From Pyrinomonadaceae bacterium (GTDB taxonomy: Bacteria; Acidobacteriota; Blastocatellia; Pyrinomonadales; Pyrinomonadaceae), in contig JACMJZ010000026.1 in the NCBI GenBank assembly GCA_014380365.1, forward strand, positions 1-64,000: a stretch of 64,000 bases of DNA. Reading direction: 5' to 3'. The stretch's first letter is position 1. Every line of letters begins with the position of its first letter. The notes below the pieces were generated by a model. It saw nothing but the letters and a program-made list of their open reading frames with translations, searched no databases and was not told where the DNA came from. Positions 4,602 through 55,546 of the stretch are shown piece by piece. The position numbers and the translations under genes are program-made.

Positions 4602-6269
4602 ATGAAAGAATTAATAGAAACCCCTATCCCCGAGCAAACGGACGATAGCCACGACCCTCCCGAGGTGCGAAAGGCAAAGGAGTTGGCGCGTCGATATCGC
4701 CTGACATTTGTTGAGCTCCTTCCTGCCGATCAGGAATCCCCGGTCAATTACGAACTCTTTAACGAAATCCCCGTGGATCTGATGGTGCGCCACCAGTTTC
4801 TTCCGCTCAAGCGCGATGAAAAGGGACTGCATATCGCGATGGCGGATCCGGCAGACCTCGACCGGCTTGACGAACTTGCCGGCGCTCTTCGCGCTCGCAT
4901 CGTCCCTTACGTGGCGACGGCGGGCACAATTGAACTCATCCTGCGCCGGGGCGATGCAACGCAGCGCGTGTTGCAGGAAGCGGCGTCCGGCTTTCGTATC
5001 TCATTAGTCAGGGAGACGGAAACCGGCGAGGAAGTACTCGATCTCGATCGATTGGCGACCGACTCCGACATGTCGCCGATTATCAAGCTGGTCGATACGA
5101 TTATTTACAACGCAATGGAGTCGCGCGCGTCGGACATTCACATTGAAACGCGCGACACGGAAGTGCAGGTCAAGTATCGAATCGATGGCGCGCTCTACGC
5201 CAAAGTAGACCCGATTGATCTCTCGTTTCATCAGACATTGATCTCGCGTATCAAGGTCATGTCGGAGTTGGACATTGCCGAGCGCCGCGTGCCGCAGGAT
5301 GGCCGCTTCCGCGTTCGCTACAAGGGACGCAATGTCGATTTCCGCGTCTCAATCATGCCGACCATCCACGGCGAAGACGCAGTGATTCGTATTCTCGACA
5401 AAGAACAGATCAACGAAGAGTTTAAGAATCTGAATCTGGATGTCGTGGGCTTTGACGCTGACGACTTGCGGAAGTTTCGCCACTACATCGCCGAACCTTA
5501 CGGCATGGTGCTGGTGACTGGCCCCACCGGCTCAGGCAAGACGACCACTCTCTATGCGGCGCTCAACGAGATTCGAAATGAAGAAGACAAGATAGTCACG
5601 ATCGAAGACCCGGTTGAGTATCAGTTGCACGGCATCACTCAAATTCCCGTCAACGAAAAGAAGGGGCTGACCTTTGATCGCGGGCTCCGTTCAATTCTGC
5701 GTCATGACCCGGACAAGATCATGGTCGGGGAAATACGCGACACCGAAACAGCCCAGATTGCTATCCAGTCTGCGCTGACCGGCCATCTTGTGTTTACAAC
5801 CGTTCACGCCAATAACGTCATCGATGTTATCGGTCGCTTTTTGAATATGGGCGTCGAGCCTTACAACTTCGTCTCCTCGCTAAACTGCGTGTTGGCCCAG
5901 CGACTGATTCGTATCCTGTGCCCTTATTGCAAGCGGGAGTACCGCGCGAAAGATGAGGAGTTGGTCGATTCGGGACTGCGCCTCGAGGAGCACCGCGATA
6001 CGCCATTCTTTATGAACACCGGGTGCGACTCGTGCAACCATACGGGCTACCGTGGCCGAACGGCGATTCATGAGTTGCTGGACCTTTCCGACAATATTCG
6101 CGAGATGATAGTCGAACGCCGGCCTGGTTCAGAGGTTCGCCGGGCGGCCGAGGCCGAAGGGCTCAGGAGCCTAAGGGAATCAGCGCTCAAGAAGGTATTT
6201 GCCGGAATTTCCACGCTGCATGAGATTAATCGCGTTACGTTCGTACATGAGATCAGCGCCGGCAAGTGA
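4602..6269 (+). CDS. gspE: Type II secretion/type IV pilus assembly ATPase GspE/PilB family
   Basis: Walker A GPTGSGKTTTLY, DPDKIMVGEIRDTETA, tetracysteine CPYCKREY...CDSCNHTGYRGR. Confidence 0.95.
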   Translation: MKELIETPIPEQTDDSHDPPEVRKAKELARRYRLTFVELLPADQESPVNYELFNEIPVDLMVRHQFLPLKRDEKGLHIAMADPADLDRLDELAGALRARIVPYVATAGTIELILRRGDATQRVLQEAASGFRISLVRETETGEEVLDLDRLATDSDMSPIIKLVDTIIYNAMESRASDIHIETRDTEVQVKYRIDGALYAKVDPIDLSFHQTLISRIKVMSELDIAERRVPQDGRFRVRYKGRNVDFRVSIMPTIHGEDAVIRILDKEQINEEFKNLNLDVVGFDADDLRKFRHYIAEPYGMVLVTGPTGSGKTTTLYAALNEIRNEEDKIVTIEDPVEYQLHGITQIPVNEKKGLTFDRGLRSILRHDPDKIMVGEIRDTETAQIAIQSALTGHLVFTTVHANNVIDVIGRFLNMGVEPYNFVSSLNCVLAQRLIRILCPYCKREYRAKDEELVDSGLRLEEHRDTPFFMNTGCDSCNHTGYRGRTAIHELLDLSDNIREMIVERRPGSEVRRAAEAEGLRSLRESALKKVFAGISTLHEINRVTFVHEISAGK

Positions 6270-6499: not shown

Positions 6500-9202
6500 A
6501 TGAAATATAAGATACACACCCGAACCCCGATTTCCCTGTTGCTTGCCGTTTGCATTTTGATGATGCCGATCGTCGCGCTGGCCAAGAAAGGCGAGAAAAA
6601 CTTCAAACAGGGAATGCGTTATGAGGCAGCCCAGCAATGGGAAAAAGCGGCGCAGGAGTTTACGCTCGCGCTCGCCGCCGATCCCTCCAACGTGGACTAC
6701 CAGCTGCATTTTCGGCGCGCCAGCTTTAACGCCTCGCAGTCGTTTATGCAGCAGGGACGCGCCCTCGCGGAGCAGCGAGATTTCGTAGGAGCGTATAACG
6801 CCTTCAGGCAAGCGTTTGGGTACGATCCAGTTAACGAGTTAGCGGTATCAGAGATGGAGCGAATGCTTCACCTCCAGCGCGTCAAAGAATCACAGAATGG
6901 CAATGGCGGCCCGGCCAAGACGGGAGAACCTCAGCAGGGAAATCTGGGTGCGCCCGCACAGCCTCAGGAAGCCCCCCCGCCTGCCCCAAGGGCGCCGGAA
7001 GTGTTACGCGTCGTCACTTTCAGCGGAGACCTCAAGTCGTATATCCGCACCCTGGCTGAGCAACTGAACCTGAATGTTATTTTCGACCGGCAGTCGTTCG
7101 TGCAGCCGAAGACAATTGATATAAACTTGCGCGACGTCACCACTTCGCAAGCTCTCGACTACATCTTTCTTCAGGAAGGCCTATTTTTCCAGAAGCTGAG
7201 CCGTCGCACCATCGTGGTCGCTGATCAAACACGACGGCCTCAATATCAGCAACTCGTCTTGCGTACTTTCTTTCTCGCTAATTCCGAACCTGAAAAGGCG
7301 AAGATCCTGATCGGCCAGGCGATTCCTCCGTCCGTGGGCCGCCCGCAGACAATCGTGGTTGCCGACAAAGACACCAACAGTTTGACCGTGCGCGATACGG
7401 CGGAAAACGTGCGGCTAATCGGGGAACTACTCCAGAGCATCGATAAGGATCGCGCCGAAGTTGTGATGGACGTGAACATCTACGAAGTTTCAAAAAGCGA
7501 TCTGATGCAGTTTGGAAACCAACTTGGAGATTCAACCTCGCTGACTACTCTCGGGGGACTGCGGTCGTCGGGTACCACGTTCGGTGGGTTGGCGCGAGCT
7601 CTGGCGCCAGGGGCGGCGACGGCGACGTCATTGCCGGTAGCCTTTGGCGCGGCCCTCATTCTCCCTGCATCGCAGTTCCAAGCTTTGCAGAGCAGGAGCA
7701 ATACGAAGCTGATTGCTTCAACTCAGGTCCACGCTTTCAATGGTGAAGAATCAACCGCACGCATCGGACAGCGCGTGCCGGTGCAAACCGCCCAGGCTTT
7801 TCCGTTTGGCGTTCAGACGGGAACGACCACACCCACGCCGGGAAATCCTTTTGGCGGTGGCGGCGGCTTTCCGGTGATTAACTATGAACCAACCGGGCTA
7901 ACCCTGAAGTTTACACCGCAGGTATTTCCCAATCATGACGTGCAGGTCAAGATGTCGATTGAATCCAAAGACGTGCTGGGCGCAAGCACTCTGACACCGA
8001 CATTTACCGAAAGAACAATAACCGGAACCGCACGCGTGCAGAACAACCGCACCATGATGCTGGCCAGCGTTTCTCAGGATGTGCACACCACCGGCCGGCG
8101 GGGATTGCCGATTCTGGGGCTGATTCCTGTGTTGGGTCGGTTGTTCACCGCGCCCACGCGGGACGAGCGGCGGATTGATATTGTGATTGCGGTCACGCCG
8201 CGCGTGTTGCGCGCGCCGGCGATTACGCCGCGTGATGAAGAGATGCGGCCTAGCGGAACGCTACAGTCGCCCACGACGGGCACACTCGAAGCGATGCTCC
8301 GCGAGTCTGATCGCGAAGAACAGTTGGCGGAATGGCGTCTGCAACAGCAGAACGCAGCGACCGCCAGAACTGCTGCGGCCCAGTCGTCGCCTGTGGTGCC
8401 GGCAACAGCTTTGGTGATTCCTGCGCCGGCGCCGGTGCAAACCAGTGCGGCTGAGACTGTAGTCGCGAAAGACGCCGCAAGAGAGATGACTAGTCCGGCG
8501 GCGGCCACTACGGTCGCGCAACTGTCGCCCGGATCGTCCTTGGCGAGTGACGCGTCGGGCTCTGTCGAAGAGTTACCGGCTTTTGTGCCCGCCCCCAAAT
8601 CGCTGGTTAGCAATCGTTCGGCGGCGGAAGTTGCGGCGGTGAACACGAATGCGAATCTCAATGGAGAGGCGCGGGCGGTGCTGACAAGCCTGACGAACTC
8701 GAATAAGACGGTGCCAGTTGAGGCAGTAGTTAGTCCGCGCAGCGGTAGAACTGCCCAGCTAAGGCTGACACCTGGCGGCGACCAGATCACGCAGGTAATG
8801 AAGGTTGGCGAGAAACGGCGGTTTGCGGTCGAACTCAACTCGGATGTGTCGCTGGCGATGGCGGTATTGGCGCTGCGGTTTGATCCGAAAGTCGTGAAGA
8901 TCAATTCCGTCTTGGCTGGGAAGCTCCTGAGTGGCGTTGATGCCCAGGGGGCGGCCACAGGTGCAGTGCCGACTGTTACACAGTCCACGGATCCGACTGG
9001 TCTCTGTCTGATCTCGATATCGACTCTGAATGGCGCACCCGCCATGAAGGGTGCGGGAACGCTCGTCTTCATAGAGATCGAAGGTGTCGGGGTGGGCGAT
9101 GCCGCGTTCGCATTTGAAAAAGGCGCCATGCACTTGGTGGCGACAGACGCGCGTGATGTGACGCTGGTTGCGATCACGGCTCGCGCAGTTGTGAATCAGT
9201 AA
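6500..9202 (+). CDS. gspD: Secretin GspD with C-terminal cohesin-like domain
   Basis: Secretin core (VPVQTA..., TGLTLKFTPQVFPNHDVQVKMSIES, GLPILGLIPVLGRLF); C-terminal VGEKRRFAVELNSDVSLAMAVLALRFDPKVVKINSV resembles cohesin. Confidence 0.92.
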   Translation: MKYKIHTRTPISLLLAVCILMMPIVALAKKGEKNFKQGMRYEAAQQWEKAAQEFTLALAADPSNVDYQLHFRRASFNASQSFMQQGRALAEQRDFVGAYNAFRQAFGYDPVNELAVSEMERMLHLQRVKESQNGNGGPAKTGEPQQGNLGAPAQPQEAPPPAPRAPEVLRVVTFSGDLKSYIRTLAEQLNLNVIFDRQSFVQPKTIDINLRDVTTSQALDYIFLQEGLFFQKLSRRTIVVADQTRRPQYQQLVLRTFFLANSEPEKAKILIGQAIPPSVGRPQTIVVADKDTNSLTVRDTAENVRLIGELLQSIDKDRAEVVMDVNIYEVSKSDLMQFGNQLGDSTSLTTLGGLRSSGTTFGGLARALAPGAATATSLPVAFGAALILPASQFQALQSRSNTKLIASTQVHAFNGEESTARIGQRVPVQTAQAFPFGVQTGTTTPTPGNPFGGGGGFPVINYEPTGLTLKFTPQVFPNHDVQVKMSIESKDVLGASTLTPTFTERTITGTARVQNNRTMMLASVSQDVHTTGRRGLPILGLIPVLGRLFTAPTRDERRIDIVIAVTPRVLRAPAITPRDEEMRPSGTLQSPTTGTLEAMLRESDREEQLAEWRLQQQNAATARTAAAQSSPVVPATALVIPAPAPVQTSAAETVVAKDAAREMTSPAAATTVAQLSPGSSLASDASGSVEELPAFVPAPKSLVSNRSAAEVAAVNTNANLNGEARAVLTSLTNSNKTVPVEAVVSPRSGRTAQLRLTPGGDQITQVMKVGEKRRFAVELNSDVSLAMAVLALRFDPKVVKINSVLAGKLLSGVDAQGAATGAVPTVTQSTDPTGLCLISISTLNGAPAMKGAGTLVFIEIEGVGVGDAAFAFEKGAMHLVATDARDVTLVAITARAVVNQ

Positions 9203-9206
9203 GAAA

Positions 9207-9872
9207 GTGATTTACCTCCAAGCACAAGGTAAGAGTCAGTCAAAACGCGGCGACACGGTGAAAGCGGTTGAGTTTCCGGGTCGCCGCGTCACTCTGTCGC
9301 GACTGTCGGCGCGTGGAGGCCGCGACCTGCGCGGGTTCACGCTGATTGAACTCGTCATCACGGTTACGGTGCTCTCGATTCTGACGCTCGGGGTAGTGCC
9401 GTTGATGAAGCTTTCAGTAAAGCGTCAAAAAGAAGAGCAGCTCAGGTCTGCTTTGCGAGAGATGCGTTCGGCGATCGACGAGTTTCACCGCGACACTGCA
9501 CAAATGGAATGCGGAGGGACTGGTGGTCAGAACCAATATGTCGATCCACGCAGCCGGGTAAAAATATCGGAATGCACCATATTTGGCGTCGATAATATTG
9601 ATCGGTATCCGCCGGATCTGGACATATTGGTAAGCGGCGTGAATGTCGTCCCGCGAATTACGGGCCCTGTAGTCGGTTCGCAGTTGTCCACCAAAAAGAA
9701 GGTGTATCTTCGGTCGATTCCAATTGATCCGATGACCGGCGAAGCCGAATGGGATTTTCGTTCCTGTTACGACGAGGCTGATTCAGGATCGTGGGGCGGC
9801 GAAAATGTTTTTGATGTACGTTCGAAGTCGAAGGACAAAGCTCTGAATGGAGAGAAGTATAGTGACTGGTAA
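9207..9872 (+). CDS. Type II secretion pseudopilin-like protein (prepilin N-terminus)
   Basis: GFTLIELVITVTVLSILTLGVVPLMKLSVKRQKEEQLRSALREMRSAIDEFHRD; start codon uncertain (track start is a non-ATG/GTG alternative). Confidence 0.85.
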   Translation: MIYLQAQGKSQSKRGDTVKAVEFPGRRVTLSRLSARGGRDLRGFTLIELVITVTVLSILTLGVVPLMKLSVKRQKEEQLRSALREMRSAIDEFHRDTAQMECGGTGGQNQYVDPRSRVKISECTIFGVDNIDRYPPDLDILVSGVNVVPRITGPVVGSQLSTKKKVYLRSIPIDPMTGEAEWDFRSCYDEADSGSWGGENVFDVRSKSKDKALNGEKYSDW

Positions 9873-10341
9873 AACGCAGAAGGCAGCAAGCAGAAGGCAG
9901 AAGGCAGGCAATCATGAGCGTGTTGGCCGCTCTCTGCCTACTGCCCACTGCCGTCTGCCTACTGCTTTCACTGGCTTCACGCTGCTTGAGTTGATGATTG
10001 TGATCACCATCATCATCATTCTGGCGGCCATTGTACTCCCGCAGTATCAGAAGACCATTCTTGCCACGCGCGAGGCGGTGCTGCGTGACGATCTCCACAA
10101 GCTGCGCACCTTGCTCGATCAATTTGCGACCGACAAGCAAAAGTTGCCAGACTCACTCGCGGAGTTGGTTTCCGAGGGCTACATCCGTGAGGTGCCAAAG
10201 GATCCGATGACTGGGGCGGCGGATTGGAGAGAGGACAGGGGCGACGATCCAAACTCGACCAAGGACGGAGACGGCGTTATTGATGTTCATAGCTCATCCC
10301 CCGATATGTCATCGGAAGGAACGCCGTACAACGAATGGTAA
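9847..10341 (+). CDS. gspG: GspG-like pseudopilin with unusually long leader
   Basis: GFTLLELMIVITIIIILAAIVLPQYQ prepilin motif, PKDPMTGAADWRE; overlaps preceding ORF. Confidence 0.85.
   Translation: MERSIVTGKTQKAASRRQKAGNHERVGRSLPTAHCRLPTAFTGFTLLELMIVITIIIILAAIVLPQYQKTILATREAVLRDDLHKLRTLLDQFATDKQKLPDSLAELVSEGYIREVPKDPMTGAADWREDRGDDPNSTKDGDGVIDVHSSSPDMSSEGTPYNEW
9877..9968. repeat. Inverted heptanucleotide array, unit cagaagg
   Basis: cagaagg cagcaag cagaagg cagaagg cagg... / ...tctgcct actgccc actgccg tctgcct actgctt. Confidence 0.9.
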
Positions 10342-10344
10342 GCT

Positions 10345-10456
10345 GAATTTCGGATTTCGGATTGCGAATATAGAATTGGTTTCCTGATTTCAAGCTCTTA
10401 AACACGATGTCTCACGACGATAAATTCGCAATCCGAAATTCGAAATTCGAAATTCA
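10345..10456. repeat. Inverted heptanucleotide array, unit tttcgga/ttcgaaa
   Basis: aatttcggatttcggattgcgaat ... attcgcaatccgaaattcgaaattcgaaattc. Confidence 0.9.
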
Positions 10457-10458
10457 CA

Positions 10459-11409
10459 ATGCCTAATCCTCTTACAAAGCTAATAAATCCACGTTACCCA
10501 TCGACGGCAGTCGGTTTCGAAAAGGGACTGGCGACGATGGTTCAACTCGAACGCGGGCGCAGCGGCTCCAGCAGTCTGCGGCGGGCGGCTACCGTTGCTT
10601 TGCCCGAATCCCTGATTCGCCCCAGCTTCGACGAGCCAAACATTGCCGACCCTGCCGAGCTCCGCGCGGCCCTTTCCGAACTGGCGACGAGCGCCGGGCT
10701 GCTGCAAACCAAGCGTTGGTCTGTGGCTTTGCCGGATGGCGTTAGTCGGACTCTGATTTTGTCTCTGGAGTCTCAGCCCAGTTCAAAAAGTGAACTCGAG
10801 GAAGTGCTGAGGTGGAAAGCGGAGCGCGGCTTTAGCGCTTCGCTCGAGGAGCTTTCAATTTCGCGGGAGCGCCTGTCGCCGGACAATCAGGGCAGAGATC
10901 GCTATCTGGTAGTCGCGGCCCGCGCCGCCATCCTTAGCGAGTATCAGGATGTCTTGCATTCTCTTGGCTGGCGCCCGGGGCTGATTCTTCCGCGCCACAT
11001 GGGCGAGGGGCAATGGTTAACTACTAACGGATCCAAAGGCGACGCGCTGTTGCTTAGTTCGTCTGACGGTGGATTTACTGCCGTGGTGTTTCGCGGCAAA
11101 CAGCCGCTGATCATCCGGACTGTTTCGTGCGACCCGCTGGAATGCGAAGACGAATTGTATCGCCTGCTCCTTTTCTATCGCGATCGTCGTGGGGGTGAAG
11201 CCGAGAAGATGGGACAGGCGCTCGGGCGCGTGCTCACCATTGGTGAGATGATGAGCAAAGATCGCTCGTGCGAGATAGTGAATGAAACGCTGGGAACAGA
11301 TCTGCGCCCGCTAAACGCCGCTGATCTAGGTCTGCAACTTTCCACCCAAGAGTTGAGTTTTGACGCCATTGCCGCGCCGGCAGGATTGGCGACGTTATCG
11401 TGGCAGTAG
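10459..11409 (+). CDS. PilM-like/type IV pilus biogenesis-associated protein
   Basis: 316 aa; VALPDGVSRTLILSLESQPSSKSELEEVLRWKAER pattern; operon position after pseudopilins. Confidence 0.6.
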   Translation: MPNPLTKLINPRYPSTAVGFEKGLATMVQLERGRSGSSSLRRAATVALPESLIRPSFDEPNIADPAELRAALSELATSAGLLQTKRWSVALPDGVSRTLILSLESQPSSKSELEEVLRWKAERGFSASLEELSISRERLSPDNQGRDRYLVVAARAAILSEYQDVLHSLGWRPGLILPRHMGEGQWLTTNGSKGDALLLSSSDGGFTAVVFRGKQPLIIRTVSCDPLECEDELYRLLLFYRDRRGGEAEKMGQALGRVLTIGEMMSKDRSCEIVNETLGTDLRPLNAADLGLQLSTQELSFDAIAAPAGLATLSWQ

Positions 11410-31531: not shown

Positions 31532-32563
31532 ATGAAACCCGAAGAGCTCGCTGCATACAAGAAGGTAACTGAGGAGTTAACCAGTCGCGAATGGCTTGGT
31601 CGGCGGCTTGCCGAAGAACAGGTGAAGGCCGACTCAAGTGTGAATAGACTGATCGCAGCCAGCATGACCAAAGAACAGGTGAAGGCCGACTCAAGCGTGA
31701 ATAGACTGATAGCAGCGAGCATGACGGGAATCCGTGAACGCGCCGCAGTAAGCGCTGTTGCGGGAATGGCTAGACACCTGGGTGCGTACGACAATTGGAC
31801 TCAAGCATTTGAGGTCCAAGCCAGAAGCCAAGTTGAAGAATTGGTTCGTAAGATGACCGTGTCAGCCTTTAACGCTGAGCGGTTTACTGCTAGGTATGCG
31901 GTAACAGAGCAGATTCGATCTCTCGCCCAAATCAGGAGAGGGATTGATGCATCCATAATCGCCAATCTTGGGAGAGCAAGTCCGCCTGAAAGCGTATTGT
32001 CACTGTCTGCCGTTCTCGAAGAGCGCCTTCGAACGCTTGAACAATTCCATTCGGTTTTTGCGCAAACGATGGCGCAAACGCTTAAGACTGCATTCGAGGG
32101 ATTAGAGGAACGCAACAAAGAGTCTCTAGCCAAACTTGAAGAATCAATCGACAACAAGATTGAAGCGTTACCCCTAAGGATGCGCGAGTCTGTTTTGGTC
32201 AGAGTCGTAAATGCGCTTATAGCTCTTGTAACGATAGCTGGCGTCGTAATAGCTTTCGCTCAATTTCTGGATTCAAAAGAACAGTCAAAGCTGCTTACTG
32301 CGTTTATGATGGAAGCAACCAAGACGTTGCAAGAGATAGCGACTAACACCGCAAAGCAACCAGACTCGTACTACGAGGCGAAGAGAGGCGTCAAACTTAA
32401 ACTGAGACCGGATAATCGGAGTACTACGCTAGCAACGATACCGCGAGGTGACGAAGTTCTCTTGATTAGCAAAAAGCACAAGTGGATTTTTGTAGCATAT
32501 ACAAATGACTCAGGCACGATATGGGGGTGGGTGAATAAGAAGTACCTTAAGAAATCCAACTAG
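31532..32563 (+). CDS. Hypothetical membrane-anchored protein with C-terminal SH3-like domain
   Basis: TM VVNALIALVTIAGVVIAFAQF; C-terminal GVKLKLRPDNRSTTLATIPRGDEVLLISKKHKWIFVAYTNDSGTIWGWVNKKYL bacterial SH3 pattern. Confidence 0.68.
   Translation: MKPEELAAYKKVTEELTSREWLGRRLAEEQVKADSSVNRLIAASMTKEQVKADSSVNRLIAASMTGIRERAAVSAVAGMARHLGAYDNWTQAFEVQARSQVEELVRKMTVSAFNAERFTARYAVTEQIRSLAQIRRGIDASIIANLGRASPPESVLSLSAVLEERLRTLEQFHSVFAQTMAQTLKTAFEGLEERNKESLAKLEESIDNKIEALPLRMRESVLVRVVNALIALVTIAGVVIAFAQFLDSKEQSKLLTAFMMEATKTLQEIATNTAKQPDSYYEAKRGVKLKLRPDNRSTTLATIPRGDEVLLISKKHKWIFVAYTNDSGTIWGWVNKKYLKKSN
31616..31729 (+). repeat. 57-bp in-frame tandem duplication (2 copies)
   Basis: gaacaggtgaaggccgactcaag(t/c)gtgaatagactgat... 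at 31616..31672 and 31673..31729; encodes EQVKADSSVNRLIAASMTK/G. Confidence 0.95.
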
Positions 32564-34143: not shown

Positions 34144-34374
34144 TTGGGTACCCGAGAATGGAATTTGGGTGCCCCGGAATTGATTCTGAGTACCAAAGAA
34201 TGGATTTTGGGTACCCGGGAAGAGAGTTTGGGTACCCGGGAAAAGAGTTTGGGTTCCCCGGAATAGAGTTTGGGTAGTCGCAAAGAGAGTTTGGGTACCC
34301 GCGAAGAGAGTTTGGGTGCGCGCGAAGAGAGTTTGGGTACCCGCAAAGAGAGTTTGGGTAGTCGGGTATTAATT
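34144..34374. repeat. 11-unit gap-free 21-bp tandem repeat array, consensus TTGGGTACCCGNGAAGAGAGT
   Basis: Units align end to end for 231 bp; core GGGTACCC palindrome recurs. Confidence 0.95.
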
Positions 34375-50825: not shown

Positions 50826-50873
50826 AGATGCCAGATGCTGGATGCCAGATGCTGGATGTTAGATGTCAGAAGG
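50826..50873. repeat. Left arm of heptanucleotide array flanking the S23-like gene
   Basis: agatgcc agatgct ggatgcc agatgct ggatgtt agatgtc agaagg. Confidence 0.9.
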
Positions 50874-51279
50874 AACCGTGTCAGCAAAAGCACCGATTCG
50901 AAGCCATCGCGACCTGATCGTGTGGCAGAAGGCGATGGATCTGGTTGTAAACGTCTACGGCGCCACCGAAAGTTTTCCCAAAGCGGAAATGTACGGTTTG
51001 ACGAGTCAGATACGACGTGCGGTCACCTCAATACCGGCCAACATTGCTGAGGGACAAGGCAGACGGTTGTCGAAGGAATTTATTTACTTCCTTGCTAATT
51101 CCAGAGGATCGCTTCTGGAGCTTGATACACATTTAGAAGTGGCAACTCGACTCGGATTCCTCGAAGCGCCCAAACATGCCGAACTGCAGGGTCAACTGGA
51201 TGAGGTGGGACGCTTGCTCAACGGTCTCATGCGCTCAATAACCAATTCTAGCAGCCAGCATCTAACATCTAACAACTAG
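50863..51279 (+). CDS. Four helix bundle protein (23S rRNA intervening-sequence/S23-like)
   Basis: RSHRDLIVWQKAMDLVVNVYGATESFPKAEMYGLTSQIRRAVTSIPANIAEGQGR. Confidence 0.92.
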   Translation: MSEGTVSAKAPIRSHRDLIVWQKAMDLVVNVYGATESFPKAEMYGLTSQIRRAVTSIPANIAEGQGRRLSKEFIYFLANSRGSLLELDTHLEVATRLGFLEAPKHAELQGQLDEVGRLLNGLMRSITNSSSQHLTSNN

Positions 51280-51293
51280 TATCTAGCATCTCT
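51250..51293. repeat. Right arm of heptanucleotide array flanking the S23-like gene
   Basis: tagcagc cagcatc taacatc taacaac tagtatc tagcatc. Confidence 0.9.
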
Positions 51294-51298
51294 TTCCA

Positions 51299-53314
51299 AT
51301 GTCTAAAATCCGACTCCTTCCCGATCACGTCGCCAACCAGATTGCCGCCGGGGAAGTTGTAGAACGTCCGGCTTCGGTTGCTAAGGAGCTTGTCGAAAAC
51401 GCGATCGACGCGGGCGCGACGCGCATTGCGATTGACGTTGAGGCGGGCGGGCGCAGACTTTTGAAAGTCTCTGACGATGGTGACGGCATGGTCAGGGACG
51501 ACGCCGTTATGGCCTTCGAGCGACATGCCACTTCCAAGATAGCCAAATCGGAGGACCTCAGTTCCATCAGCACGCTCGGCTTTCGCGGTGAAGCCCTGGC
51601 CTCAATTGCGTCGGTTGCGCGCGTCGAACTCACCACGAACACAGAAGAGGGTCCGGCAACTCGCGTCGTCATCGACGGCGGCAAGATGCGCGACGTGAAA
51701 GACGCGGCCCACCCGCGCGGAACCACGCTCATCATCCGCGATCTTTTTTTCAACGTCCCGGCGCGCCGAAAGTTCTTGCGCTCGGAGGCAACCGAAAGTT
51801 TTCACCTGACCAATCTGGTAACTCACTACGCGCTCGCCCACCCCGAAATCGCTTTCACACTCACTAACAATGGTCGCGAAGTCCTGCGCGTCGCCTCAGC
51901 TAAAGACTTGCGCGAACGTGCCTATCAAATCTTTGGTGCGGAGTTCCTGGATAATCTGCTCGAAGTCAGCGGCGGACACCAGAAGATTGCGCGCGTGAGC
52001 GGTTTTGTTTCCGCGCCGCGCGACCGGCGCACGTCGCGCGACGCGCAGTATCTGTTCGTCAATGGTCGCTTCGTCCGCGACCGTCTGATTTCGCGCGCGC
52101 TTTCCGAGGGCTATCGTGCCGTATTGCCGCACGGCGTTTATCCGGCAGCGCTGCTGTTCATCGAGACGCCGCTGGAGGAGGTGGATGTAAACGTCCATCC
52201 GGCCAAGACGGAAGTCAGGTTTCGCCGCGCCGCGGCAGTCGCCGACGCAGTGCGCGAATCGGTGCGTGCAGCCTTGGCCAGCGCGGGCCACGTTCGGCGT
52301 GAGACGAACGAACAGTCACCGGTTGCGGTTCTGGTAGATGAATCCGATTCTGCTGTTTTGGCCAACGCCGTGCCGGCCGCAATCGAGGCGCCGCTTAGCG
52401 CCATTCAACCCCGCATCGAATTCACCGCTTCGCCCATCGACGACGCTCCGCTCCAGTCGTCAGAACGGCCCGGGGTAGCGGGCGGGCCAGTATATGTCCA
52501 AAGTCCAAAATCCAAAGTCCAAAGTCCAACCTCCAATCTACGGGTTCAACCTCCTGCTGGGACCGCGGGCGTCCCGCCCGCAACGAGCGCGCAGCGCGAG
52601 AACGTACCTGCCCTCTCCCCGGACATCACCGAGGAAATATCAAGCGCGTCTGCGTCACCCGGCAGCCCATCCATGCAACTCCCGCCGCTCAACTCGGCTG
52701 ACAAGTACGCGCGCGAAGTCTCGGTCGAGTCTCTTTCCACCGACATCAGACCCCTCGGCCAGCTTGACGAAAGTTTCATCATCGCCACCGACAATGAAGG
52801 CCTGTTGCTAATCGATCAGCACGTAGCCCACGAACGCATCCTGTTCGACAAGTATCGCGCGCTCGAGTCCACTCGAATTGCCGAGTCGCAACATCTATTA
52901 ATTCCCGAGACTTTTGATCTCACACCCGCGCAGGCATCAGTATTCGATTCGGTTGCGAAGGAACTCGAAAACTACGGCTTCGAGCTTATGCGTTTGTCCG
53001 GCCGGACAGTGGCGATTAAGGCGACCCCGGCAGACTTGCCCCCCGGTGAAGCGCGCAACATGCTCGCCGAGATACTCGATACCGTTGATGCAGAGAAGAA
53101 GGGAAGTGCGCGAGAAACGTTGCGGGATGACATTGCCGCCTCGCTCGCCTGCCACGCGGCCATCAAAGTGAATATGCCGCTGACGCCCGAGAAGATGCGC
53201 TGGCTAATAGATCGTTTATTGCAGACTTCGTCGCCGACCACCTGTCCGCACGGCCGCCCCGTCATCCTCCGTCTCGCCACCCGCGACATTCTCAAAGGCT
53301 TCCACCGGATCTAG
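51299..53314 (+). CDS. mutL: DNA mismatch repair protein MutL
   Basis: IRLLPDHVANQIAAGEVVERPASVAKELVENAIDAGATRI; TLGFRGEALASIASV; C-terminal TCPHGRPVILRL. Confidence 0.97.
   Translation: MSKIRLLPDHVANQIAAGEVVERPASVAKELVENAIDAGATRIAIDVEAGGRRLLKVSDDGDGMVRDDAVMAFERHATSKIAKSEDLSSISTLGFRGEALASIASVARVELTTNTEEGPATRVVIDGGKMRDVKDAAHPRGTTLIIRDLFFNVPARRKFLRSEATESFHLTNLVTHYALAHPEIAFTLTNNGREVLRVASAKDLRERAYQIFGAEFLDNLLEVSGGHQKIARVSGFVSAPRDRRTSRDAQYLFVNGRFVRDRLISRALSEGYRAVLPHGVYPAALLFIETPLEEVDVNVHPAKTEVRFRRAAAVADAVRESVRAALASAGHVRRETNEQSPVAVLVDESDSAVLANAVPAAIEAPLSAIQPRIEFTASPIDDAPLQSSERPGVAGGPVYVQSPKSKVQSPTSNLRVQPPAGTAGVPPATSAQRENVPALSPDITEEISSASASPGSPSMQLPPLNSADKYAREVSVESLSTDIRPLGQLDESFIIATDNEGLLLIDQHVAHERILFDKYRALESTRIAESQHLLIPETFDLTPAQASVFDSVAKELENYGFELMRLSGRTVAIKATPADLPPGEARNMLAEILDTVDAEKKGSARETLRDDIAASLACHAAIKVNMPLTPEKMRWLIDRLLQTSSPTTCPHGRPVILRLATRDILKGFHRI
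52494..52538. repeat. Single-arm heptanucleotide array inside mutL, unit gtccaaa
   Basis: gtccaaa gtccaaa atccaaa gtccaaa gtccaac ctccaat. Confidence 0.92.
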
Positions 53315-54205: not shown

Positions 54206-55021
54206 TCAGAGGCGGGCCAGCGTATCCATCGTTAACTTCAGATCCGTGAAATCCGGCAGCAGGGCATCGGGGTTGTGAGCGAGAAGTTCCTCCCGCGAGT
54301 AGAAGCGACCCGTACCTACAATCAGCGTGCGCGCGCCGAAGTGTTTGGCGCAATCAATGTCGTTGGTAGTGTCGCCGATGACGATGAATTGGTCGGGCGC
54401 GAGGTCGAGTTGCAGCGACTCACGAATGCGATCAGCGGCAAGTGTGGGCAGGTCGCGACGATCGTGTGATTCATCGCCGAAGGCGCCGGGCAAATCGAAG
54501 AAATCTGAGAGACCCACCATCTTCATCTTCAGATGCGCCGCGGGTTCGATGTTGCCGGTGAGCAGCGCAGAGTGATAACGAGGATGCTCGGTGACCGCCT
54601 GGAGAACTTCACGCACGCCCGGCAGCAATTCAAAAACTTCCTCGCCATTGCCGGTGAATTTATGCATCGCCTTCATGTAGCTTTCACGCAACTCGTGCAC
54701 GCGCTCGCGTATGTGCTCATGCGTGAAGCCTTCGTGCTTCAAAGCTTCGCCTACAATTTGCAGGTCAGTCATTCCCGACACTTTCATTTGCGGCAATTGC
54801 CCGGCAGTACCGAAAACTTCTTCCAGCATTGGTATCGTGTAGTCTTTGAACCCGCCGGCGCGCTTGGTGCGCATGAGCGTGCCGTCGATGTCCCAGAGGA
54901 GGATGCGGAGGGATGAAGGATGAGGGATGAAGGATGAATGAGAGTTTTCTTTGGTCAGCGGCACGTTAGTTTGTTTCCGGGGATCTGGAGTGTCGGTAGC
55001 CGGCTCAGTTTCATCCCTCAT
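54206..55021 (-). CDS. HAD family hydrolase
   Basis: LLWDIDGTLMRTKRAGG; VIGDTTNDIDCAKHFGARTLIVGTG. Confidence 0.9.
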   Translation of the reverse strand: MRDETEPATDTPDPRKQTNVPLTKENSHSSFIPHPSSLRILLWDIDGTLMRTKRAGGFKDYTIPMLEEVFGTAGQLPQMKVSGMTDLQIVGEALKHEGFTHEHIRERVHELRESYMKAMHKFTGNGEEVFELLPGVREVLQAVTEHPRYHSALLTGNIEPAAHLKMKMVGLSDFFDLPGAFGDESHDRRDLPTLAADRIRESLQLDLAPDQFIVIGDTTNDIDCAKHFGARTLIVGTGRFYSREELLAHNPDALLPDFTDLKLTMDTLARL

Positions 55022-55024
55022 CCC
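54908..55024. repeat. Inverted heptanucleotide array, unit ggatgaa
   Basis: gagggatgaaggatgagggatgaaggatgaatgag ... tttcatccctcatccc. Confidence 0.88.
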
Positions 55025-55546
55025 TTATTCGATCACTGCCAGCACGTCGCCCGCGCTTACGGTGGCGCCCACTTCAGCATTGATGGAAACAACAGTTCCC
55101 GCCTTCGGTGCCTTCATTTCGTTTTGCATCTTCATTGCTTCCACCACCACCACACCTTCCCCTGCTTCAACCTGCGCGCCGGGTTCCACCAAAACTCGCA
55201 CTATCTTTCCTGGCATCGGCGAAATGATTTGAGCCGCACCCCTGCTGTGGGCGGTGGTGGTTTCCCCGGTTCGCAGACGCTTAGGATCAACTATCGTTAT
55301 CTCATGCGTATGTCCACCTACTGCGACGTCAAACAAACCGTTCGCGCCGCGTGAGCCTGGCCTGCTGTCGACTCGTGCTTTATAAACACGCCCGTCCACT
55401 AGCAGCAAATACTGTCCTTTGGCCAACTCGCGAACTACGACTTCATACGGGCGTCCATCAACTTCGGCGGAGGCCCCCACCGTCCCGGCATTGAGCTCAA
55501 TCGAGACGTCGTGCTCCAGACCTGCCAATTGTGCTTTCAGCTTCAT
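55025..55546 (-). CDS. Biotin carboxyl carrier-like protein (biotinyl domain)
   Basis: ISPMPGKIVRVLVEPGAQVEAGEGVVVVEAMKMQNEMKAPKAGTV. Confidence 0.92.
   Translation of the reverse strand: MKLKAQLAGLEHDVSIELNAGTVGASAEVDGRPYEVVVRELAKGQYLLLVDGRVYKARVDSRPGSRGANGLFDVAVGGHTHEITIVDPKRLRTGETTTAHSRGAAQIISPMPGKIVRVLVEPGAQVEAGEGVVVVEAMKMQNEMKAPKAGTVVSINAEVGATVSAGDVLAVIE

Follow-up and report, generated by a model that had tools for sequence, protein, structure and literature searches.

The window, by which we refer to the entire 64,000-nucleotide stretch of soil-bacterium DNA analyzed here, contains a type II secretion/type IV pilus-like operon in which the gene for an upstream pseudopilin is directly followed by a second prepilin gene (Table 1). 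The closest relatives by name were Pyrinomonadaceae and other Acidobacteriota MAGs. The encoded protein displays the G↓F[TS]LLE motif with Glu5 together with the N-methylation domain, preceded by a hydrophilic basic leader that ends in Gly-1 at 9973–9975. Profile searches matched TIGR02532 with 17.6 bits, above its cut-off of 16.3, and PF07963 at 43–64 with 20.4 bits in one search (cut-off 21.2) and 22.9 bits, above cut-off, in another. The TIGR01710 profile yielded 41.9 bits, below its cut-off of 88.85, and the Pfam T2SSG profile (PF08334) missed this prepilin, matching another gene only; we therefore refer to the gene as GspG-like. A prepilin peptidase gene is present in the same genome (PF06750, E 7e-37).

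Table 1 Features of the prepilin locus and of the comparison element in the window.
Feature	Position	Strand	Remarks
GspE/PilB ATPase	4602–6269		Operon member
Secretin	6500–9202		Operon member
Upstream pseudopilin	9207–9872	+	Operon member
Shine–Dalgarno-like GGAGAG	9849–9854	+	9 nt between GGAG and GTG 9862
GspG-like prepilin CDS, proposed start GTG 9862 (longer alternative ATG 9847)	9862–10341	+	NTG conservation, Ser codon bias
11-nt overlap of the gene start with the upstream pseudopilin end (SDW-stop)	9862–9872	+	Overlap also in array-free L016, L019
Putative leader peptide, 38 codons including Gly-1, MTGKTQKAASRRQKAGNHERVGRSLPTAHCRLPTAFTG	9862–9975	+	Net charge +7
Left arm of the inverted heptamer array	about 9876–9908	+	GCAGAAG units
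Right arm of the inverted heptamer array	about 9934–9967	+	CTGCCTA units
Prepilin peptidase site G↓FTLLE and hydrophobic N-terminal stretch	9973–10038	+	PF07963 match there
Second inverted heptamer array	10345–10460	+	Junction of GspG-like gene and PilM-like ORF; right arm runs into PilM-like ATG
PilM-like ORF	10459–11409		Operon member
Inverted heptamer array with S23/IVP gene (50863–51279) between its arms	50826–51291	+	Comparison element

Within the leader of the GspG-like gene we observed an inverted period-7 array at 9876–9967, built of GCAGAAG/CTGCCTA units, whose arms are 75–90% complementary and which accounts for 92 of the 114 nt of the leader (81% of its codons). This array is not a chance pattern. 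The lag-7 score of the leader exceeded those of all 200 shuffles, and at one identity threshold the window yielded 12 period-7 arrays and none at lags of 5, 6, 8, 10 and 12. The RNA fold predicted for 9840–9985 amounted to −64 kcal/mol, corresponding to a z of −3.9 against dinucleotide shuffles; Rfam matches over the array were sub-threshold hits to plant and animal microRNA models, indicating generic hairpins. The array sits in a protein-coding operon, not in 23S rRNA, and no ORF was found between its arms, such as the S23 ORF of the S23-bearing intervening-sequence elements. Pattern searches, from which all genome-wide array counts were obtained, returned 194 hits of GCAGNNGGCAGNNGGCAG in the genome versus 22 for the control, with the many copies being mostly intergenic and most other arrays of the window located at ORF junctions. 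Among the ten prepilins listed for this genome, only the GspG-like gene carries an array at its leader. As regards MITEs and REPINs, no common terminal sequence is apparent among the arrays, as their units differ from locus to locus. Thus, the original prediction of an inverted heptamer array in the prepilin leader is borne out by the arms, the lag-7 statistics and the fold, and its description of the leader as largely translated repeat from both arms agrees with the extent of the array. Its naming of the gene as GspG stands as far as the resemblance is concerned, but not in terms of the GspG cut-offs. Likewise, the leader of about 42 residues that it had given is indeed longer than the class III (type IV prepilin) leaders of 6–26 aa described previously (PMC4471445), a described range and no strict requirement, but comprises 38 residues if counted from GTG 9862, or 43 if counted from ATG 9847.

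The corresponding gene was retrieved from about 110 genomes belonging to the family and the class, most of which are drafts, where repeats can be distorted by short reads; leaders were scored at 102 loci, counting that of the window. ATG 9847 and GTG 9862 had been named as the only in-frame starts, both upstream of the array, and the sequence agrees, as they are the sole in-frame ATG, GTG or TTG codons before GFTLLEL. Comparing N-termini across related genomes, which had been suggested along with the prediction, revealed a start-capable NTG (GTG or ATG) at the overlap with the upstream stop at 84 of the 102 loci, with an ATG at this position in L024, a member of another genus. The NTG arises where the upstream gene has a T-ending codon just ahead of its terminal D/E-W-stop, and the upstream-gene residue overlapping it varies between Ser, Arg, Asn and Gly while the NTG stays. 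For the overlapping Ser codon we counted AGT 73 times and AGC 11 times (n = 84; nominal p 3e-31), with AGT making up 26% of the AGT/AGC codons elsewhere in the same gene pair. Furthermore, GGAGAG or GGGGAG occupies the Shine–Dalgarno-like site in most relatives, where it also codes for part of the upstream protein. Judged from these sequence comparisons, the start is almost certainly GTG 9862 and not ATG 9847. The upstream pseudopilin stop, TAA 9870–9872, does lie inside the prepilin ORF as had been stated, but the overlap is also found in array-free relatives. Array-free members of the genus share the start and have short basic leaders (MTGKVKQA↓G in L016, MIGRVKTA↓G in L019), and some array-free relatives possess leaders of only 8–18 codons from the conserved start. 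Because both the start and the overlap are present without an array, the suggestion that the array displaced the original start has to be given up; the array appears to have filled the leader and left the start in place.

An array of heptamers or octamers was present in the leader at 53 of the 102 loci and lacking at the other 49. The distance from the NTG to the cleavage site was a multiple of three at 81 of the 84 loci with an NTG versus 7 of the 18 without (Fisher p 5e-8, a value that overstates the case since species counts are not independent, so that tree counts are the safer measure), the latter proportion being near the chance expectation of one third. Where NTG and array occurred together, 50 of 52 loci were in frame, comprising 25 different leader lengths. 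The array leaders extended over 16–64 codons with a median of 35, the array-free ones having a median of 15. The coding frame was open in 50/50 array leaders, compared with 20 and 21 for the other two forward frames, whose openness was scored after the first 12 nt. In addition, G exceeded C in the first half of 49 of the 50 array leaders and C exceeded G in the second half of 45, and the net charge was positive in 47. This profile points to selection that visibly keeps the reading frame of the leader while leaving its sequence free.

The predicted fold could also mean that the array acts as a functional RNA or DNA hairpin, serving as an mRNA processing or stability element or as a translational regulator, with its coding being incidental. 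Besides the z of −3.9 for the window region, such a role would fit the 29 of 47 array leaders of at least 60 nt that have arms with at least 12/14 complementary positions, reaching z values down to −13. The remaining 18 of the 47 lack such arms, however, which weakened the requirement for a hairpin that we had considered, and several leaders join two different heptamers and show a weak folding excess or none (L079, L095). Moreover, half of the relatives have no array, and the feature that is constant across the array leaders is the open frame, not the stem. We consider a hairpin function with incidental coding unlikely.

On the tree we counted at least 20 changes in array presence, 8 of which are required by well supported branches, and at least 31 changes in array type. 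The leaders fell into GCAG-type heptamers (22), ATCC-type heptamers (9), other heptamers (18), octamers (4) and leaders with none (49). Close relatives could differ completely: L006 and L014, whose mature pilins are 98% identical, carry GCAG heptamers in one leader and unrelated octamers in the other, and L053 and L057 (93% identical) carry GCAGAAG-type and GTCAGGA-type arrays, respectively. The leaders of L083 and L093 (90% identical) comprise 19 versus 42 codons, those of L061 and L062 (80% identical) 8 versus 45 codons. Genomes with a GCAG-type leader contained a median of 82.5 GCAG array hits versus 4 in the others (p 1e-9, to be read with the same caution as to species counts), and within the genus of the window the five array-free members had 0–14 hits versus 33–197 in members with a GCAG leader. 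Thus, the sequence of the array turns over while its place and frame are kept, and the array type at the leader follows the genome-wide repeat content. A single inheritance from the family ancestor followed by drift, in which presence would reflect constraint at the locus and not recurrent arrival, is in line with the clustering of arrays on the tree beyond that of shuffled labels. It does not account for near-identical pilins with unrelated units (L006/L014; L053/L057), for the at least 8 well supported changes in presence or for an array type that tracks genome-wide repeat content, rendering it rather improbable. We also observed that in L079 and L095 the two leader arms consist of different, non-complementary heptamers, and that in L011, L014, L023, L064 and L220 period-8 inverted arrays replace period-7 arrays at pilin leaders and S23 flanks.

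Initiation at ATG 9847 would extend the leader to 43 residues and would make use of an in-frame ATG, the stronger start codon. This position is not conserved, with many relatives reading T-G-R or T-E-R and Thr codons standing there in L010, L020 and L022–L025, for example, in contrast to the conserved NTG at 9862; the Shine–Dalgarno-like GGAG precedes 9862 by 9 nt and shares nucleotides with ATG 9847 itself, so that we regard initiation at the latter as very unlikely. Hardly credible is a non-canonical start just before GFTLLEL (e.g., a right-arm CTG) or a sequencing frameshift, either of which would place the array truly upstream of the gene: L125 and L129, whose arrays are not in phase with the conserved NTG and which have later, possibly used in-frame starts, would agree with it, but elsewhere reading from the NTG across the array stays in frame for all 25 lengths and meets no stop, and no ATG, GTG or TTG lies between the array and the cleavage site. 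A sequencing frameshift in particular is very unlikely in view of the 50 of 52 loci in frame and the uniformly open frame. In L125 and L129 the array may have displaced the start, which is not the case in the window.

Arrays also occur at other coding positions. In the upstream pseudopilin, 18 of 71 relatives have a period-7 array at the leader and 8 more a period-8 array, the latter type being clear in L007, L011 and L014; the corresponding stretch of the window, 9240–9330, resembles an inverted array that has decayed (CGGCGACACGG ... GTCGCCGCGTCACTCTGTCGCG). Within the MutL gene (51299–53314), a period-7 array at 52493–52541 is in frame and codes for VQSPKSKVQSP, located in the linker from the N-terminal domains to MutL_C. 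An inverted heptamer array at 54907–55026 spans the first ~38 codons of a HAD hydrolase ORF on the reverse strand (54206–55021, −), with the HAD domain following directly, which points either to a further N-terminus encoded by an array or to a misassigned start. The window further contains a 21-nt tandem repeat of ten copies (TTGGGTACCCGGGAAGAGAGT) at 34144–34360 and a nearly identical 57-bp tandem pair at 31614–31725.

The S23/IVP gene of the window (PF05635, bAvd-like) is enclosed by an inverted heptamer array with arms at 50826–50870 and 51247–51291. We scored 37 S23 genes in 12 acidobacterial genomes, nine in the genome of the window and 28 in eleven relatives, and found 25 of them enclosed by complementary period-7/period-8 arrays, with a first flank test having given 20/37 and a wider one, which also accepts octamers and shorter arrays, 25/37. 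The enclosing arrays usually lie within about 100 nt of the domain, their unit differs at almost every locus, and several non-enclosed S23 loci keep degenerate period-7 inverted repeats. As a control, 3 of 1254 same-size slots taken every 50 nt across the window qualified, all of them on the S23 gene. On plasmids, 8 of 12 S23 genes (eleven cyanobacterial, one from Gemmatirosa) were enclosed, sitting, for example, between cas6 and cas4 or between two ribonucleotide reductase subunits, and none of the 1948 control slots in two cyanobacterial plasmid stretches qualified. Array-poor genomes have few S23 genes, with one weak match each in G015 and G003, and G004 has 17; the relation is loose, as G132 combines 1358 GCAG hits with 4 S23 genes. 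No S23 relatives were found in the viral contigs searched, and a search of the open-licence literature turned up no paper that connects S23 genes to heptamer arrays, except for the heptamers of the Coxiella element.

As the leader array contains no S23 gene, its link to S23 is based on resemblance and co-occurrence, from which we infer that it is an ORF-less member of the S23-associated element class. Tentatively, and as a possibility that we would not bet on, the inverted heptamer and octamer arrays of many bacteria could be traces of one selfish element class, whose full form has an S23/IVP gene between its arms and which includes the 23S rRNA intervening sequences. The S23 protein would then act in trans, seeding or rewriting arrays of varying unit at gene junctions, of which prepilin leaders would be one translated instance. 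Both the mobility of the arrays and the part of S23 in it are deduced from their distribution, and S23 might move the arrays or write them.

Taken together, we are fairly confident of an account that combines junction-like leader DNA, a start at GTG 9862, a translated ORF-less array, a removed leader and recurrent arrival of arrays under selection for frame. The stretch from the upstream pseudopilin stop to the prepilin cleavage site, nearly all of which is taken up by the array, would in effect be a translated gene junction. Ribosomes would initiate at GTG 9862, probably by coupling to the stop of the upstream gene at 9872, and read through the inverted heptamer array, giving rise to a long, mostly basic leader. 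Prepilin peptidase would cut after Gly-1 and the leader would be discarded, so that its sequence should hardly matter. The array itself would be an ORF-less copy of the dispersed inverted heptamer, sometimes octamer, class that also encloses S23/IVP genes; such arrays would repeatedly arrive at the junction and be replaced or decay there, with selection keeping the frame, the absence of stops, and the start and end of the leader. The reason why the leader is the place affected is argued from its anatomy: since the genes overlap, there is no untranslated junction, and since prepilin peptidase is expected to remove the leader, this leader would behave like a junction with the added demand for an open frame. 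The length of 38 residues, exceeding the described range, counts against this account, as does the strong hairpin predicted just after the start, which could hinder initiation. Repeat arrays would here have been turned into coding sequence over and over at a tolerant place, with dozens of relatives serving as replicates. The array leaders thereby provide a natural experiment on the minimum requirements of a prepilin leader. Furthermore, the heptamer arrays of bacteria are tied together with the S23/IVP proteins, which opens the origin of the two to testing.

A class III leader that consists of a dispersed inverted heptamer array and recurs across a bacterial family represents a new variation on known kinds, of which the S23 link is the newest and least firmly tested part. 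With the class III leaders described previously (PMC4471445) it shares the hydrophilic basic leader ending in Gly, the G↓FTLLE site, Glu5 and the hydrophobic stretch, whereas its 38 codons compare with 6–26 residues and it is coded by a repeat array that is swapped between species. Close counterparts of the arrays themselves come from Xanthomonas (GGGAATC) and Nostoc, whose G-rich convergent heptamer arrays (PMC4692102) are likewise dispersed, of period 7 and often arranged in convergent inverted pairs, most of them at gene junctions and no farther than 50 bp from a start or stop. The leader array has the 7-nt period and the convergent inverted arms of this type, but not the G-quadruplex type consensus (GGGAATC or GGGGAYT), its units being GCAGAAG and others. 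In addition, the arrays described here comprise many different heptamers as well as octamers, form the translated prepilin leader in about half the family and show a link to S23; PMC4692102, which makes no mention of S23, reports no general association of arrays with mobile elements. The cyanobacterial heptanucleotide repeats (STRR, Calothrix), as far as they are outlined where PMC4692102 cites them, are also tandem heptanucleotide arrays and come from the lineage of the array-enclosed plasmid S23 genes, but their genomic setting differs and the likeness is one of description. The intergenic TAACTGA heptanucleotide repeats of Beggiatoaceae (PMC4679880) are abundant and lie next to start codons, as here, yet they are direct repeats of one sequence and not convergent arms. 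Finally, the 23S rRNA intervening sequence of Coxiella burnetii (PMC4990558) holds an S23p ORF inside an inverted-repeat stem, in the same manner as the S23-enclosing arrays, and has tandem heptamers (GACAGAT) before that ORF; according to the citations given there, intervening sequences with an S23p ORF also occur in Leptospira and Brucella. In contrast to these rRNA insertions, the arrays described here reside at gene junctions and in coding sequence, where the leader array represents a form without an ORF.
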